64,000 nucleotides of DNA from Yoonia sp. F2084L (GTDB lineage Bacteria; Pseudomonadota; Alphaproteobacteria; Rhodobacterales; Rhodobacteraceae), in NCBI RefSeq assembly GCF_023015625.1, contig NZ_JALKAH010000002.1, positions 434,001 through 498,000 on the forward strand, written 5' to 3'. The notes beneath the pieces were generated by a model. The model searched no databases and had not been told where the DNA came from. It saw only the letters and a list, made by a program, of their open reading frames with translations. Numbering within the stretch: position 1 is the first letter of the stretch; each line of letters starts with the position of its first letter. The position numbers and the translations under genes were made by a program. This document shows, one piece after another, positions 34,473-54,388 of the stretch.

Positions 34473-37400
34473 TCACCCCTGCAACGACCTCACCCCAACA
34501 TCCCCCTCAACCCGCGCTTGCATCGCCAGCACCGCCGCATGTGATGCTGCCGCTGTCGTGAAATACGGGATTTTGTCGTAGAGTGCGACGGCGCGGATGT
34601 CGCGGCTGTCTTCGACCGCTTGTGACCCTTCCGTCGTGTTGAAGACCAGTGCGATGTGTCCGTCTTTCAGCCGGTCTACGATGGTCAGCCCGCCTTCGTA
34701 GACCTTGTTGACCACTTCGCAGGCGATCTCGTTCTCGCTCAGCCAGGCCGCGGTGCCCCGAGTTGCGACGATGTCGAACCCCAGTTTCAGCAGCATTTGC
34801 CCCGCTTCCAGCATGGCGGCTGTTTTGTCGGCGTCCTTGATCGAAATAAAGACGGTGCCCGCCTCTGGCAAGTCGGTGCCTGCGCCCATTTGCGCCTTGA
34901 GGAACGCGCGCGGGAAGGACCGGTCCCAGCCCATGACCTCTCCGGTCGATCGCATTTCCGGCCCGAGGATCGTATCGACGCCGGGGAAGCGGGCAAAAGG
35001 CAGGACGGCCTCTTTCACGCTGAACCACGGGGTGTGCGGGTCGGCCAATGTGAAGGCGTCGCCCAAGGGCAGCACGTCCATCGGGTTTTCGGTTTCGGGG
35101 TAGGGTTCGCGCAGGGGGAAGTTCGACAGCGGCTCGCCCGCCATCAGCCGGGCCGCGATAGAGGCGATCGCTGAATCGGTCGCTTTGGCCACGAAAGGCA
35201 CGGTGCGCGACGCGCGGGGGTTCACCTCGATCAAATAGACGGTTTCGTCTTTCACCGCGAACTGGATGTTCATCAGGCCCACGACGTTCAGCGCTTTGGC
35301 CAGCTTTTCCGTTTGCTCGCGAATTTCCGCGATCATGGCGTCGGAAAGCGAGTAGGGGGGCAATGAGCAGGCGCTGTCGCCCGAATGCACGCCCGCTTCT
35401 TCGATGTGCTGCATGATGCCGGCGACATGGGTGGCGTTGCCGTCTGACAGGCAATCCACGTCAACTTCGACCGCGCCTGACAGGTAGCTGTCAAGCAGGA
35501 CGGGGCTTTTGCCGGAAACGACAACCGCCTCCGAGATATAGCGCCGCAACTGATCCATATCGCGCACGATTTCCATCGCGCGCCCGCCCAGAACGAATGA
35601 CGGGCGGATGACGAGGGGGAAGCCGATGCCTTCGGCAATATCCAGTGCCTCTTGGTCGGTGGAGGCGATGCCATTGACCGGTTGGCGCAGCCCAAGGTCT
35701 TGGACAAGCTTCTGAAAACGCTCACGATCTTCGGCCAGATCAATAGCGTCGGGTGTGGTGCCAAGGATCGGGATGCCTTCGTCATGCAACGCATTGGCGA
35801 GTTTCAGCGGGGTTTGCCCGCCGAATTGCACGATGACACCGTGAAGCGTGCCGTTGTCCTGTTCAACCCGCAGGATTTCCATAACGTGCTCAAACGTCAG
35901 CGGTTCGAAATAGAGGCGGTCAGAGGTGTCGTAGTCGGTGGAAACCGTTTCGGGGTTGCAGTTGATCATGATGGTTTCGTAGCCCTGATCGGTCAGGGCG
36001 AAACAGGCGTGACAGCAGCAATAATCAAACTCGATTCCCTGCCCAATCCGGTTCGGGCCACCGCCAAGGATCACCACCTTCTTGCGATCCGAAGGCCGTG
36101 CTTCGCATTCCGCATCGCCCATCACGGGGGTTTCGTAGGTGGAATACATGTAGGGTGTTTGCGCCTCGAACTCTGCCGCGCAGGTGTCGATCCGTTTGAA
36201 AACAGCGTTGACGCCAAGATTGCGGCGGGCGCGGCGCACCTGATCTTCGGTCCGTCCGGTGAGGGTTGCGAGCCGCGCATCGGTGAAACCATACATCTTG
36301 ACCTTGCGCAGGTCATCTTCGGTGACGGGCAGACCGTTTGATTTGATCTCGGCCTCCATGTCGATGATCTCGCGGATACGGGCAAGGAACCATGGGTCGA
36401 ATTTGGTGACGGCAAAGATGTCGTCGTCAGATAAACCGTGCCGCATGGCTTGCGCGATGACGCGGATACGGTCTGGCGTTTGCTTGGCGAGTGCCTTGGT
36501 AATGGCGGCGGCGTCGGGTGCGCCGGGTATGTTGATGTCGTCGAACCCGGTCAGGCCGGTTTCCATGGACGCCAGCGCCTTTTGCATGGACTCGTGGAAG
36601 GTGCGGCCAATGGCCATGGCCTCGCCCACGGATTTCATTGCTGTGGTCAGATGCGGTTCAGAGCCTGCGAATTTCTCGAATGCGAAGCGTGGAATTTTGG
36701 TGACCACATAGTCGATTGTCGGCTCGAACGACGCGGGCGTGACGCCGGTGATGTCATTGTCCAACTCGTCCAGCGTGTAACCCACGGCCAGTTTTGCCGC
36801 GATTTTTGCGATGGGGAAACCTGTGGCCTTTGACGCCAGCGCAGAGGAGCGTGATACACGCGGGTTCATTTCGATCACCACCATGCGCCCGTCATCGGGG
36901 TTCACGGCCCATTGCACGTTGGATCCGCCGGTTTCGACCCCGATTTCGCGCAGCACGTTGATGCTGTGCGTCCGCATGATCTGGTATTCCTTGTCGGTCA
37001 GGGTCAGGGCAGGGGCGACGGTGATCGAATCGCCGGTATGCACACCCATGGGGTCGACGTTTTCGATGGCGCAGACGATGATGGCGTTATCGGCGCGGTC
37101 GCGCACGACCTCCATCTCGAACTCTTTCCAGCCAAGCAGGGATTCGTCGACAAGGATTTGCCCAACCGGAGATGCCTCCATCCCCGTCCGGCAATAGTAT
37201 TCGTAGTCTTCGCGGTTGTAGGCGACGCCGCCGCCTGTGCCGCCAAGCGTAAAGGCGGGGCGGATGATGGCGGGCAGGCCGACATATTCGATGGCGTCGA
37301 TGGCCAGTTGCAGGCCCGCCTTGATGTCGCGTTTGCCCTCTACTTCAGGGGCGGTGATGATGGTCGCCTTGGGGTTTTCGATCCCTAAACGGTCCATCGC

Positions 37401-37802
37401 TTCGCGGAACAGTTTGCGATCTTCTGCCATTTCAATGGCTTCGCGCTTGGCCCCGATCATTTCGACGTTGAATTTTTCCAGAACACCCATGTCGGCCAGC
37501 GCAAGCGAGGTGTTCAGCCCGGTCTGCCCGCCCATGGTGGGCAGCAACGCGTCAGGGCGCTCTTTTTCGATGATCTTGGCGACGACTTCAGGGGTGATCG
37601 GTTCAATATAGGTGGCGTCTGCCAGCCCCGGATCTGTCATGATTGTCGCGGGGTTAGAGTTGACGAGGATGACGCGATACCCTTCTTCGCGCAGCGCTTT
37701 GCAGGCTTGAGCGCCGGAGTAGTCGAACTCGCAGGCTTGGCCAATAATAATGGGGCCCGCGCCGATAATCATGATCGACTGGATGTCGGTACGTTTTGGC
37801 AT
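34473..37802 (-). CDS. carB: Carbamoyl-phosphate synthase large subunit
   Basis: 1109 residues, slightly longer than the ~1075 typical of other bacteria. Two homologous ATP-grasp halves: the first with [20 protein letters not shown] (10-29) and [10 protein letters not shown], the second with [20 protein letters not shown] (~580) and [13 protein letters not shown]-terminal MGS-like allosteric domain starts around [10 protein letters not shown]. It makes carbamoyl phosphate from glutamine-derived ammonia, bicarbonate and 2 ATP for arginine and pyrimidines, with CarA (not in the window). Confidence 0.98.
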
Positions 37803-37905: not shown

Positions 37906-37919
37906 TTGATCTGTGTCAA
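37906..37919. promoter_or_regulatory. FnrL/FNR-type box upstream of bchE
   Basis: TTGAT-CTGT-GTCAA matches the FNR/FnrL consensus TTGAT-N4-ATCAA at 9 of 10 fixed positions. It lies 55 bases before the bchE ATG and overlaps the first PpsR palindrome by 6 bases. Expected role: activation under low oxygen (inference from Rhodobacter). Confidence 0.6.
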
Positions 37920-37931
37920 TAAAAATAGACA
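37914..37931. promoter_or_regulatory. PpsR/CrtJ palindrome 1 upstream of bchE
   Basis: TGTC-N10-GACA, an exact match to the TGT-N12-ACA site bound by the photosynthesis repressor PpsR/CrtJ. Paired with a second site 8 bases downstream, the classical tandem spacing for cooperative binding. Confidence 0.8.
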
Positions 37932-37939
37932 GTCAAATA

Positions 37940-37957
37940 TGTAAATTAAAGTGGACA
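37940..37957. promoter_or_regulatory. PpsR/CrtJ palindrome 2 upstream of bchE
   Basis: A second TGT-N12-ACA site, separated by 8 bases (37932-37939) from the first. It ends 16 bases before the bchE start codon, so a bound tetramer would cover the promoter and translation-start region. Confidence 0.8.
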
Positions 37958-37973
37958 TATAAGGGAGTCAGCC

Positions 37974-39638
37974 ATGCGCATTCTGTTTGTTCACCCAAAT
38001 TACCGCTCTGGTGGGGCGGAGATTGCAGGCAGCTGGCCCCCGGCCTGGGTTGCCTATCTGACGGGGTCGCTGCGTCGTGTCGGGTTTGACGATATCCACT
38101 TTATCGACGCGATGACGAATGATCTATCCGACGCGGTGCTGGCTGAAAAGATCAGCGCGCTGCAACCCGATGTAGTGGGTGTGACAGCGATTACGCCGTC
38201 GATCTACAAAGCTGAGGAAGTCTTGCGGATCGCCCAAGAGCGCGTGCCTGATGCCTTGCGCATGATGGGCGGGGTCCATGCGACGTTCATGTATAAGCAG
38301 GTGCTGTCAGAGGCACCGTGGATTGATGTGATCGTACGCGGTGAAGGCGAAGAGATTTTGACCGAGTTGATGTGTGCGGTTCGCGATGGCCGCTGGCCTG
38401 CGGAGAAACGCAAAATCAAGGGCCTCGCCTTCATTGATGAAGGCGAGATTGTTGCGACACCTGCGGCAAGCACAGTGAAAGACCTTGATGGCATTGACCC
38501 CGATTGGACGATTTTGGAATGGGAGAAGTATATTTATATCCCGCTGAATACCCGTGTGGCGATACCGAATATGGCGCGCGGCTGTCCCTTTACCTGTTCG
38601 TTCTGTAGCCAGTGGAAATTCTGGCGCGACTACCGTGTGCGCGACCCCAGGAAGGTTGTCGATGAGATTGAGCGTTTGGTGAATGAGCAGGATGTTGGCT
38701 TCTTTATTCTGGCCGATGAGGAACCGACGATTAACCGCAAGAAGTTCATCCAATTCTGCGAAGAGCTGATCGCCCGTGGCCTGCCGGACCGCGTGAAATG
38801 GGGGATCAACACGCGGGTGACGGATATCTACCGCGACCGCGAATTGCTGAAGTTTTACCGCGAGGCTGGGCTGGTGCATGTGAGCCTTGGTACTGAGGCG
38901 GCAGCGCAGATGAAGCTGGACCAGTTCAACAAAGAGACCAAGGTTGAAGAGAATAAAGAGGCCATTCGCCTGCTGCGCGAGGCCGATATTCTGGTAGAGG
39001 CGCAGTTTATTGTGGGGCTCGATAACGAAACCCCCGAGACCTTGAACGAGACCTATAAGATGGCGTGGGATTGGCAGCCTGATCTGGCGAATTGGGCGAT
39101 GTATACGCCTTGGCCGTTCACGCCGCTGTTTCAGGAGCTCAAGGATAAGGTCGAGGTGTTCGACTTTAGCCGCTATAATTTCGTGACCCCAATCATGAAG
39201 CCAAAGGCGATGGAGCGGGGCGAGTTGCTGGACGGTGTGATGAACAACTACCGTCGCTTTTACATGAAGAAAGCGTTGTTTCACTATCCGTGGCGGGGCA
39301 CCGGGTTTCGGCGACGGTATCTGCTGGGCTGCCTCAAGGCCTTTATGAAAGCGGGCTTTGCACGGACATTCTATGATCTGGGCAAGGTGGGCTATACCGG
39401 GCCCCAGTCGAAGAATAACCTTGATTTCCAGTTTGATGAGAGCCGCACCATCGCCGAAGCGCAGATGGAAGACTGGGAAGCCAGCGCCGATAAGGCCGCA
39501 AAAGCGGCCGAGCGTCGCGCGGCTGTCAGGGCGCAAGGTAAGGCGCGCGCGGCTGAACGGACGGCGAGTTTCAAGATGCCGAATGGGGCGCAGGTGAAGG
39601 CCTGCGGTGGCGGCTCTGAGCAAATGGAGGATGCTTGA
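37974..39638 (+). CDS. bchE: Anaerobic Mg-protoporphyrin IX monomethyl ester cyclase
   Basis: 554 residues. N-terminal cobalamin-binding domain (~1-140; [20 protein letters not shown] and [19 protein letters not shown]), then a radical SAM domain with the 4Fe-4S motif CxxxCxxC at C204, C208 and C211 ([16 protein letters not shown]), and a C-terminal region ending in an Ala/Lys/Arg-rich helix (~500-540). BchE builds the fifth ring of bacteriochlorophyll without oxygen. RBS AAGGGAG at 37961-37967. bchJ follows with an overlap. The upstream FnrL box and two PpsR palindromes support a photosynthesis gene regulated by oxygen and light. No other photosynthesis gene lies in the window. Confidence 0.95.
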
Positions 39639-40230
39639 GGATGCAAATCGCGGAACCGGACTGATTGGCCCGAACGCGATTTTGCAATTGCTGCCAGTGT
39701 TGGAACGGGCGGGGGGCGCTCAATTTCGCGATCAGGTCATGGCTGCGGCGGGTGTCTTTGAAGCACCCGGTGATGATGCGATGATGTCCGAGGCACCTGC
39801 GGCCCGGATGCATCAGGCCTTGCGTGTGATTGAGCCTGAGATGGCACCATCGCTGGCTTGGGCAGCGGGGGAACGGACGGCGCGGTATATTCTGGCGCAT
39901 CGTATTCCGAAGGCGGCGCAGGTGGTGTTGCGGATTTTGCCTGCGACACTGGCCGCGCCGATCCTTTCGAAAGCAATAGCCAAACATGCCTGGACCTTTG
40001 CGGGGTCGGGCGCCTTTGAGGTGACGGGGCCTTTGACGTTTGAGATCAAGGACAACCCCATCGTGCGGGGTGAGGTCAGTGAAACGCCGCTATGTCATTG
40101 GCATTGTGCTGTGTTTGAGACGCTGTTTCGCACGCTCGTTGATCCAGCACTACGCTGCGAGGAAGAGGCCTGTTGCGCGATGGGCGCGCCGGCCTGCCGG
40201 TTTGTGCTGACGCGCCGTTCAAAATTCTAG
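39631..40230 (+). CDS. bchJ: Bacteriochlorophyll synthesis protein BchJ (V4R domain)
   Basis: 199 residues from the ATG at 39631 ([20 protein letters not shown]), overlapping bchE by 8 bases; a GTG at 39607 in the same frame is an alternative. The C-terminal half carries the V4R (4-vinyl reductase) small-molecule-binding domain with conserved cysteines ([20 protein letters not shown]). BchJ was first named an 8-vinyl reductase but is now thought to assist porphyrin channelling. The bchE-bchJ order matches Rhodobacter photosynthesis clusters. The stop codon sits inside a perfect 16-base palindrome. Confidence 0.92.
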
Positions 40231-40236
40231 AATTTT
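40221..40236. repeat. Perfect 16-base palindrome over the bchJ stop codon
   Basis: AAAATTCTAGAATTTT is fully self-complementary and contains the bchJ TAG. It could form a hairpin at the mRNA 3' end just before the repeat at 40240-40269. Confidence 0.6.
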
Positions 40237-40239
40237 GAT

Positions 40240-40269
40240 GGCTCCGGCGGGAGTTTTTCGGGCAAGATG
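40240..40269 (+). terminator. Short hairpin plus T-run after bchJ; copy 2 of the 30-base repeat
   Basis: CTCC-GGCG-GGAG followed by TTTTT and then CGGGCAAGATG. It acts as a plausible intrinsic terminator for bchEJ and shares 24 of 30 bases with 29191-29220. The stem is short, so efficiency is uncertain. Confidence 0.5.
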
Positions 40270-40339: not shown

Positions 40340-42193
40340 ATGCACGCCTACCGCAGCCATACCTGTGCCGAATTGACCGCCGCCGATGTGGGGCAAACAG
40401 TACGCTTGTCGGGTTGGGTGAACCGGGTGCGCGATCATGGGGGCATCCTCTTTATCGACCTGCGCGATCACTATGGCATCACACAAGTGCTCTGTGATCC
40501 TGACTCGGCGGCCTTTGCCGATGTTGAAAAGGTCCGGTCGGAATGGTGTATCCGCATTGATGGTGAGGTGAAGGCGCGTGACCCCGAACTGGTGAATGCC
40601 AAACTGCCCACTGGCGAGGTTGAGGTGTTCGTGCGCGCGATTGAAGTGCTGGGTGCGTCCAAAGAATTGCCGCTGATGGTGTTTGGTGATCAGGAATATC
40701 CTGAAGAAACACGTCTGAAGTATCGCTATCTGGACCTGCGCCGCGAGGCGATGCAGGACAATATGAAGCTGCGTTCCGACGTTGTGGCTTCCATGCGCCG
40801 CCGCATGTGGGACAGCGGGTTCCGTGAATTCCAGACGCCGATTATTACCGCGTCGTCACCAGAAGGTGCGCGCGATTTTCTGGTGCCATCACGTTTGCAT
40901 CCCGGCAAGTTCTACGCCCTGCCGCAGGCCCCGCAGCAATTCAAGCAGCTGATCATGGTGTCGGGCTATGACAAGTATTTCCAGATTGCCCCCTGTTTCC
41001 GCGACGAAGACCCGCGCGCGGATCGGTCGCCCACGGATTTCTATCAGCTGGATCTGGAGATGTCCTTTGTCGAACAGCAGGATGTTTTTGATACGATCCA
41101 GCCAGTGATCACGGGGATTTTTGAGGAATTCGGTGGCGGTCGCAAGGTGGACCAGACGTGGGAGCAGATCAGCTATCGCGATGCTGCGTTGTGGTATGGC
41201 AGTGATAAGCCTGACCTGCGCAACCCGATCAAGATGCAGGTTGTGTCAGAGCATTTTGCAGGGTCGGGCTTTGCGATTTTTGCGAAGTTGCTGGAGCAAG
41301 AGGGCACCGAAGTGCGGGCTGTTCCGGCCCCAACCGGCGGGTCACGCAAGTTCTGTGACCGCATGAATGCCTTTGCCCAGAAAGAAGGGTTGCCCGGCAT
41401 GGGCTATATCTTCTGGCGCGAAAAGACGGCTGATGCCGTAGCCCAAGAGCTGGGCATTTCAGTGAAAGAGGCGCAGGCCAAGCTGAAATCAGGCGAAGTT
41501 GAAGGCGGCATGGAAGCCGCTGGTCCATTGGCCAAAAACATCGGTCCAGAGCGGACCGAAGCGATCCGCCAGCAGTTGGGTCTAGGCTTAGGTGATGCGG
41601 CGTTCTTCCTTGGTGGTAGGCCGAAGGCATTTGAAGGCGTTGCAGGCAAGGCCCGCAATGTCATTGGGGAAGAGCTGGGTCTGACCGATCTCAACCGCTT
41701 TGCCTTTGCATGGATCGTGGATTTCCCGATTTACGAGCAGGACGAAGAGACCGGCAGGATCGACTTTGAACACAACCCGTTTTCGATGCCGCAAGGCGGG
41801 ATGGAGGCGCTGCAAGGCGATCCATTGGATGTGCTGGGTTATCAGTATGATCTGGCCTGTAACGGGTACGAGCTGGTATCTGGTGCGATCCGTAACCACC
41901 GCCCCGAGATCATGTTCAAGGCGTTTGAATTGGCCGGTTATGGCAAGGACGAGGTTGAAAAGCGCTTTGGCGGAATGGTCAATGCCTTCCAGTATGGCGC
42001 ACCACCCCACGGTGGTTGTGCTGCGGGGATAGACCGGATTGTGATGCTGCTGGCGAATGCGTCAAACATCCGCGAGGTCATCATGTTCCCGATGAACCAA
42101 CGCGCCGAAGACCTGATGATGGACGCACCCAGCGAACCGCAGAACGAGCAATTGCGCGAATTGCGCCTGCGCGTGCTGCCGTCTGAAAGCTAG
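40340..42193 (+). CDS. aspS: Aspartyl-tRNA synthetase
   Basis: 617 residues, bacterial-type class IIb enzyme. N-terminal OB-fold anticodon domain ([20 protein letters not shown], ~21-40), class II motif 2 in [20 protein letters not shown] (~218-237), the bacterial GAD insert (~290-420), and motif 3 in [16 protein letters not shown] (~555-570). Whether it also charges tRNA-Asn depends on presence of AsnRS or GatCAB, which lie outside this window. Its stop interlocks with the convergent response-regulator stop (CTAG). Confidence 0.97.
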
Positions 42194-53371: not shown

Positions 53372-54241
53372 CTACGCTTTCGTCCGCCGCGTTTCTGGAT
53401 GCAACGCTGTGCCCAGAATGTGGTCGGCCCGGTGGATGACCTTTTTGGCACTGCCGACAATCTCGGGCTGTGGCGGTGCCGCGACCGTAAGATCTTTGCC
53501 GGGATAGTCCAATGTCGACAGGAAATGGCGCATGCAATTGAGGCGCGCACGCTTCTTGTCGTTGGATTTGACGACCGTCCAGGGCGCGTCGGCAGTGTCA
53601 GTATAAAAGAACATCGCTTCCTTGGCTTCGGTGTAGTCGTCCCATTTATCAAGGCTGGCCTTGTCTATAGGCGACAGCTTCCATTGCTTCAGCGGGTCTG
53701 TTGCACGCGATTCAAAGCGGAGCTTCTGCTCGTCCTGCGTGACCGAGAACCAATACTTGTAAAGGCGAATGCCCGAGCGGGTCAGCATCCGCTCCAGCTC
53801 AGGCGTCTGGCGCATGAATTCGAGGTATTCTTCAGGTTCGCAAAAGCCCATGACCCGTTCAACACCGGCACGGTTGTACCAGCTGCGGTCATAAAGAACC
53901 ATCTCGCCCGATGTGGGTAAGTGGTTGACGTAGCGCTGAAAATACCACTGACCGCGTTCTTCGTCCGTGGGTTTGTTCAGGGCAACGACACGGGCCGCCC
54001 GCGGGTTGAGGTGTTCGGTAAAGCGCTTGATAGTGCCGCCCTTGCCAGCCGCATCACGACCTTCGAACAGTAGAATAAAACGCTGACCGGTCTCCTGCGC
54101 CCAAAGTTGGACCTTGAGCAGTTCGGCCTGCAACTCGGCCTTTTCGGCCTCGTAGGGACGGCGGGCGAGCTTGGGCAGCGACGCGGGTTTGCGCCGCGTG
54201 CGACGGGGCTTTGGTTTGGTGTCTACAGCGGTGTCTTTCAT
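53372..54241 (-). CDS. ppk2: Polyphosphate kinase 2
   Basis: 289 residues from the ATG at 54241, with AGGAG in front; 9 codons longer if 54268 is used. Single-domain class I PPK2: Walker A FEGRDAAGKGG (~59-69), the lid module around NPRAARVVALNKPTDEERGQ (~78-97) and Walker B VLYDRSWYNR (~110-119). It uses polyphosphate to phosphorylate nucleoside diphosphates. The N terminus is rich in Lys/Arg (TKPKPRRTRRKP). Confidence 0.94.
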   Translation of the reverse strand: MKDTAVDTKPKPRRTRRKPASLPKLARRPYEAEKAELQAELLKVQLWAQETGQRFILLFEGRDAAGKGGTIKRFTEHLNPRAARVVALNKPTDEERGQWYFQRYVNHLPTSGEMVLYDRSWYNRAGVERVMGFCEPEEYLEFMRQTPELERMLTRSGIRLYKYWFSVTQDEQKLRFESRATDPLKQWKLSPIDKASLDKWDDYTEAKEAMFFYTDTADAPWTVVKSNDKKRARLNCMRHFLSTLDYPGKDLTVAAPPQPEIVGSAKKVIHRADHILGTALHPETRRTKA

Positions 54242-54388
54242 GTCCCTCTCCTTTATAGCTTGGGACAAGCTTACCGGTGTTTGCAGCGGCTAGCCTTGAT
54301 GTGGGTCAAGGGCTGCGACAGCGCGACAGTTGAAAAATTGGCCCATTGGGCTAGTTTTGTTGTCAGGAAAGCACCGCAGGAGGACATC

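Follow-up and report, generated by a model that had tools for sequence, protein, structure and literature searches.

A detached bchEJ operon with an interlocked FnrL/PpsR-type promoter in Yoonia sp. F2084L

In the marine purple-type bacterium Yoonia sp. F2084L, a bchE-bchJ pair standing apart from the photosynthesis cluster is preceded by an FnrL-type box that overlaps the first of two PpsR-type palindromes. From these sites and their geometry, we infer that bchEJ belongs to the photosynthesis regulon as a detached operon, whose predicted start, FnrL and PpsR binding, mutual exclusion and expression would together amount to an interlocked AND-NOT control (probability roughly 0.7). The window, meaning the whole 64,000-nucleotide stretch that was analysed, corresponds to C5:434001-498000 of a genome assembly of 12 contigs totalling 3.88 Mb. 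Among the matches listed, the closest BchE relatives come from an uncultured member of the Rhodobacteraceae, Loktanella and Yoonia.

The bchEJ promoter and its setting

The features of the locus are given below, with offsets such as box+37 counted from the first base of the FnrL-type box.

34473..37802, minus strand: carB, the divergent left neighbour (NF003671, 1712.9 bits)
37906..37919, plus strand: FnrL-type box TTGATCTGTGTCAA, conserved, its centre putatively at -41.5 from the predicted start
37914..37931, plus strand: PpsR palindrome P1, TGTCAATAAAAATAGACA, of the form TGT-N12-ACA, putatively at -40 to -23
37940..37957, plus strand: PpsR palindrome P2, TGTAAATTAAAGTGGACA, of the form TGT-N12-ACA, putatively at -14 to +4
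37942..37947, plus strand: putative -10 hexamer TAAATT, with a conserved A at box+37 and T at box+41
37954, plus strand: putative transcription start, set by the -10 register, giving a 20-nt leader
37974..39638, plus strand: bchE (TIGR02026, 836.7 bits against a cut-off of 481.35; PF02310, PF04055)
39631..40230, plus strand: bchJ (TIGR02019, 189.2 bits against a cut-off of 74.3; V4R domain)
40340..42193, plus strand: aspS, the right neighbour (NF001750, 790.8 bits)

A preliminary description of this DNA had placed the box and both palindromes where we find them, with P1 and P2 separated by 8 bp and the box overlapping P1, and had named carB and aspS as the flanking genes, which the profile matches and coordinates confirm. 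P1 shares 6 bp (37914-37919) with the right end of the box, and P2 in the window spans both the putative -10 and the putative start. The end that had been given for the unit, 40269, has to be corrected, the bchJ stop being at 40230. By its TIGR02026 score and domain set, the bchE product is predicted to be the oxygen-independent cyclase; the B12-binding and radical SAM domains were both matched, and the translation contains the CxxxCxxC motif as CPFTCSFC. The bchJ ATG at 39631 creates an 8-nt overlap with bchE, and both open reading frames are intact. A terminator scan identified no intrinsic terminator in the bchJ-aspS interval, so transcription may read through from bchEJ into aspS. A sigma-70 scan returned no two-hexamer sigma-70-like promoter 5' of bchE.

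Taken by itself, a box or a lone palindrome is unremarkable in the window, where we counted 2 FnrL-like boxes against 0.56 expected (13 of 100 shuffles reach 2) and 10 single TGT-N12-ACA palindromes against 11.4 expected. The tandem of palindromes with an 8-bp gap would hardly arise by chance, with one occurrence against 0.01 expected. A chance origin is removed by the conservation of the sites across bchE promoters, which is described in the next section.

The preliminary description made its reading depend on photosynthesis and regulator genes elsewhere in the genome, and profile matches find them: pufLM, ppsR, fnrL, acsF, bch and crt genes, puhA and puc are all present. Its statement that photosynthesis genes are absent near bchEJ is borne out for pufLM and acsF, whose matches, like that of ppsR, lie on contigs other than that of the window. 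Contig C6 carries pufLM at 103-105 kb with pufX adjoining (PF11511), and bchC, X, Y, Z, P and G by profile matches, while C8 carries bchI, D, H (read in part), M, L, B and N, hemA and puhA. bchF was also found, acsF scored 540.5 bits, and the puc operon is represented by an LHC protein and PUCC. The crtA match comes from a 45-residue piece, and crtE was assigned by position and by prenyl-synthase matches under their cut-offs. Photosynthesis genes occupy at least four places, namely bchEJ on C5, two stretches of C6, and C8. On C8, ppsR lies at 513725-515047 (420.3 bits against a cut-off of 275.4), and between bchF and ppsR sits a B12-binding gene that we call ppaA-like on the basis of its position and domain. 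The fnrL gene (L108:952-1671, on C5 near 272.8 kb; NF045989, 387.6 bits against a cut-off of 300) encodes a protein with N-terminal cysteines, CADCPIRYNAVCSKC, which are presumably the Fe-S ligands.

Specificity and conservation of the promoter sites

Tandem PpsR-type sites were searched across the whole genome as two TGT-N12-ACA palindromes with a 7-8 bp gap, with the reversed pattern as the control. Seven were found, and none with the control. Six of the seven lie at photosynthesis operons (bchE, crtE, bchC, bchG, puc and crtA), which bears out by sequence the earlier placement of the bchE promoter in the PpsR set; the seventh is internal to a 356-codon open frame. At bchG, the site runs into the opening codons of the longest frame, 5' of the start of the HMM match, and the puc site lies ~280 bp ahead of the scanned LHC frame. 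The interlocked element, defined as an FnrL box plus a palindrome that begins at +8, was sought among the nine TTGAYNNNTGTCAA places in the genome. By the strict pattern it occurs at two of the nine, bchE and the bchF-ppaA interval (C8:512711-512736, contained in L101 and L090), and there is no third in this genome. The bchF-ppaA element has TGC in place of TGT at +33, and its -10 register is poor. In the best 80 of 578 confirmed bchE loci (1.52 Mb), no interlocked element was seen outside the bchE promoter.

These 80 loci and the window make up a comparison set of 81 promoters, which is biased toward close kin. For both motifs, the counts use strict patterns that we chose ourselves; the box rule, TTGAY-N4-RTCAA, fixes box positions 1-4 and 11-14, restricts 5 and 10, and leaves 6-9 free, and these free positions are conserved too. 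The box was found in 80 of the 81 promoters (the exception under the strict rule being L080), P1 at box+8 in 38, P2 at +33/34 in 57, either palindrome in 74, and both in 21. When the 81 promoters were dinucleotide-shuffled 100 times, boxes turned up in 0.07 promoters per shuffled set on average, and PpsR sites at the fixed offsets in none. A further set of 60 upstream stretches was reduced by 18 that were identical over 150 bp to earlier ones, which gave 36 family and 6 more distant promoters; five family genomes with BchE (G500, G529, G563, G564 and G671) were left out of it. The further family promoters have the box in 33 of 36, P1 in 18, P2 in 22, either in 32, and both in 8. Two of the six more distant promoters have a box, each with a PpsR site at the fixed offsets as well, and four lack the box.

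By position, 19 loci of the comparison set have carB and/or aspS nearby, 31 are in the photosynthesis cluster, and 31 are elsewhere; neighbour clusters built from longest ORFs, which include many antisense frames, served only to class some short contigs as cluster-linked. The carB-aspS class has the box in 19/19 promoters, P1 in 16 and P2 in 8, the cluster-linked class in 31/31, 6 and 28, and the remaining class in 30/31, 16 and 21, respectively. P1 and P2 seem to substitute for each other, as if one operator must stay: 36 of the 42 boxed promoters without P1 have P2, and 17 of the 23 promoters without P2 have P1. P1 needs 17 changes on the BchE tree and P2 needs 12. A link between detachment and P1 (32 of 49 detached loci against 6 of 31 cluster-linked ones, Fisher p 7.6e-5) was dropped, as no more than 2 independent pairs are available on well-supported branches of the tree; the excess of P1 in detached loci may reflect shared ancestry.

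Aligned on the box, the 80 boxed promoters have A at +37 in 78 cases and T at +41 in 60. Because A+37 also belongs to the PpsR half-site, the argument for a -10 is drawn from the 23 + 11 promoters without a full P2, with A at +37 in 23/23 and T at +41 in 18/23 of the first set, and 10/11 for each base in the further set. Where TGT at +33 is absent, the counts are 14/15 for A and 8/15 for T in the first set, and 6/7 for both in the second. The window keeps the register (TAAATT) despite the one-base shift of its P2. Read as A-11 and T-7, these bases would set +1 at box+48, which would centre the box at -41.5. We take a box centred at -41.5 to be in the class II FNR activator position. The bchE promoter, which lacks a good -35, is likely a class II FnrL promoter, and other Crp/Fnr proteins could occupy the box.

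Proposed control and alternative readings

At low oxygen, FnrL would bind at -41.5 and bring in RNA polymerase. In oxygen or light, PpsR would occupy P1 and P2, 8 bp apart, masking the -10, the start and the right-hand half of the FnrL box. The FnrL activator and the PpsR repressor would exclude one another at bchE, on the same stretch of DNA. The promoter would then act as an AND-NOT gate, in which the oxygen-independent cyclase is made only with FnrL active and PpsR released, and acsF would cover the oxic state. Bacteriochlorophyll synthesis at low oxygen, as the preliminary description foresaw, is a fair prediction for this organism. The proposal offers a precise, testable model for how roseobacters gate the oxygen-independent bacteriochlorophyll branch.

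Passages of the literature on Rhodobacter cover parts of this arrangement. In R. sphaeroides, FnrL was located at bchEJGP by ChIP (PMC4263372), a bchE box is listed (PMC2908626), changing the T of TCAA at -57 caused a ~90% loss of FnrL-induced activity (PMC4263372), and PpsR was detected at bchEJ by ChIP-seq with the motif TGTCAACTGAAATGGACACA (PMC4344238). One of our loci, L116, has the box TTGACATGCATCAA, as listed for R. sphaeroides (PMC2908626), the T at -57, and the PpsR ChIP-seq motif at box+33, which is its P2. The R. sphaeroides bchEJGP operon resembles ours in having its FnrL box equally far from the start codon and a PpsR palindrome at box+33. It differs in continuing into bchGP within the cluster, whereas here bchEJ stands alone, and its box, TTGACatgcATCAA, is without TGT at +8, whereas here P1 overlaps the box. 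In R. capsulatus, CrtJ was found at bchE by ChIP-seq (PMC5362033). The CrtJ tandem of R. capsulatus bchC likewise consists of two TGT-N12-ACA with an 8-bp gap, but the passage in PMC6199135 mentions no FnrL overlap there, and it places the CrtJ sites of bchEJGP and other promoters 45 to 500 bp apart. R. capsulatus bchF-aerR is similar to our bchF-ppaA interval in having an FnrL ChIP peak and sites at an antirepressor gene (PMC4634722), although its sites, ATGACATGGGTCAA and ATGCTCGAGTTCAA, do not match the interlocked pattern. The effect of FnrL on bchE varies among Rhodobacter species and kinds of data (PMC4634722, PMC4263372).

A position of bchEJ outside the cluster has already been published for aerobic phototrophs and roseobacters of the Rhodobacterales, including D. 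shibae (Dshi_2636/2637) and R. litoralis (PMC6052148, PMC12654162), though the promoter and a carB-aspS site are absent from the passages describing these two. Dispersed photosynthesis genes were noted in Loktanella vestfoldensis SKA53 (PMC3176799). Aerobic phototrophs are thought to have little need of the oxygen-independent branch (PMC12654162), and a D. shibae bchE::Tn mutant accumulates MPE and still makes bacteriochlorophyll (PMC10890935). A limited literature search returned no description of an interlocked FnrL/PpsR element. As far as searched, the element and its bchF-ppaA copy appear to be new, as do its fixed geometry with a putative class II start and the way P1 and P2 exchange.

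Simpler accounts of the promoter would do without one of the two regulators or one of the two operators. If PpsR alone governed bchEJ, the box would be a PpsR half-site region (TGTCAA) completed by chance; the 6 bp in common with P1, the unexceptional number of single boxes in the window, and the reported control of the D. shibae cluster by light rather than oxygen (PMC10890935) fit this account. We find it quite improbable, however, since 80 of 81 promoters retain the box and 38 retain P1 (window plus the best 80 of 578), TTGAY as the left half of the box falls outside P1 yet is found in the 42 boxed promoters without P1, and FnrL action in R. sphaeroides requires the site (PMC4263372). One could also hold that FnrL alone acts at the box, that P1 is a chance extension of it, and that P2 is the sole PpsR operator, as in Rhodobacter. 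Only 6 of the 31 cluster-linked promoters (best 80 of 578) have P1, the R. sphaeroides PpsR ChIP motif is P2, and the preference of FnrL alone could maintain TGT at box+8. This account is unlikely all the same: TGT stands at +8 in 59 of 80 boxes, 38 of those have ACA 12 bp on where ~1 in 64 would be random, P1-less promoters mostly keep P2 (36/42) and P2-less ones mostly keep P1 (17/23), and the strict pattern finds one other interlocked element in the same genome, at bchF-ppaA, but not a third.

The operon could also be an unused leftover under loss, with its promoter a relic, which we consider very improbable. We searched 295 family genomes, taking a match of at least 640 bits as BchE (our own cut). 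pufLM was found in 122, and 62 of these have no BchE match of at least 640 bits, with some of the genomes incomplete. One of these 62, G623, retains the promoter element (L176:1028-1348) before a BchE fragment whose match is confined to residues 1-83, and the surrounding 2.1 kb yields nothing more of BchE; this is either bchE under loss or an assembly break. Against the leftover account, all 60 of the 295 genomes with BchE of at least 640 bits have pufLM, the two frames here are intact and overlapping and the promoter sites intact, and the D. shibae bchE mutant accumulates MPE (PMC10890935).

History of bchEJ and occurrence of the element

The preliminary description called bchEJ a relocated satellite of the photosynthesis regulon. 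Its separation from the cluster stands, but the implied direction of the move may be wrong, given the detachment known in roseobacters, the 18 of 80 relatives (best 80 of 578) with bchEJ near carB and/or aspS, and a BchE divergence that tracks AspS more than PufM. In those 18 relatives, carB is at most 3.8 kb and aspS at most 2.7 kb away. Culturable relatives sharing the layout seen here include Yoonia litorea (L009) and Loktanella sp. PT4BL (L016). Mapped onto the BchE tree, a carB-aspS location requires 7 changes and a location in the cluster 3; a single carB-aspS insertion followed by simple descent was dropped because the carB label needs those 7 changes.

Pairwise distances were correlated in 15 carB-aspS genomes, with RpoB taken by alignment to the RpoB of the window's genome and the AspS of L032 cut at 530 residues; L014 (outside the search), L066 (no pufLM found), and L012 and L051 (partial RpoB) were omitted from the 19. 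The correlations were 0.859 for AspS-BchE, 0.691 for RpoB-AspS, 0.621 for RpoB-BchE, 0.414 for RpoB-PufM, 0.220 for AspS-PufM and 0.163 for BchE-PufM. A 16-genome run without RpoB gave 0.883 for AspS-BchE, 0.316 for AspS-PufM and 0.265 for BchE-PufM. In AU tests, the data of each protein rejected all foreign trees, with p values for the BchE data of 0.0115 for the AspS tree, 0.0006 for the RpoB tree and 4e-8 for the PufM tree. The correlations and the AU ranking therefore place the history of bchEJ closer to its chromosomal neighbour than to the reaction centre. Clean vertical inheritance of bchEJ was dropped, as the proteins' data reject each other's trees, including AspS against RpoB. bchEJ has shared more history with its AspS neighbour than with PufM, and this history is not cleanly vertical.

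A joint proposal, which we put forward only tentatively and hold to be possible rather than probable, is that an exclusive FnrL/PpsR oxygen/light switch is reserved, in this genome, for bchE and ppaA, and that bchEJ remained anchored while the reaction-centre cluster was exchanged. If the exclusive switch is real, FnrL would turn on bchE and also disarm its repressor via the antirepressor-like ppaA, and in the course of evolution the activator site would keep its place, with the repressor site switching between two positions. If the anchored reading is right, bchEJ would have been inherited with its neighbourhood and would record older phototrophy where the cluster was replaced. An operon that stays while the cluster moves would be a tool for asking whether ancestors were phototrophic before they held the present cluster, a question posed in PMC6052148.

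Across the family genomes, the interlocked pattern occurred 62 times in 54 genomes, and the reversed control 0 times. Promoters of bchE account for 33 occurrences in 32 genomes, with 29 elsewhere; the pattern is enriched at bchE and not exclusive to it. It is carried somewhere by 22 of the 235 genomes without BchE of at least 640 bits. Nine more family genomes have only TIGR02026 matches of 490-530 bits. Matches in this range (e.g., G557:C1:3988410-3989738 and G529:C393:2785-4119) occur in some cases in genomes that have BchE as well and in others in genomes without pufLM, and may represent a different radical SAM enzyme.

Eleven of the 29 occurrences away from bchE were inspected, and seven of these were assigned to a gene; one of the seven is the L176 element before the broken bchE of G623. 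In L173 and L174 the element lies at the crtF end, which in the window's genome is followed by bchC; in L175 it lies ahead of crtE. These three are ~7-9 kb from puf, in pufLM genomes without bchE. Three others (L170-L172) are near a polyphosphate kinase 2 gene, where a TTGAYNNGTGTCAARAAACYGNCACA-like element accompanies a gene 83-86% identical to the polyphosphate kinase 2 gene of the window. The second FnrL-like box of the window, TTGATGTGGGTCAA at 54296-54309, precedes 53372-54268 (minus strand) and lies 27 bp from the longest polyphosphate kinase 2 frame (TIGR03707, 379.7 bits).
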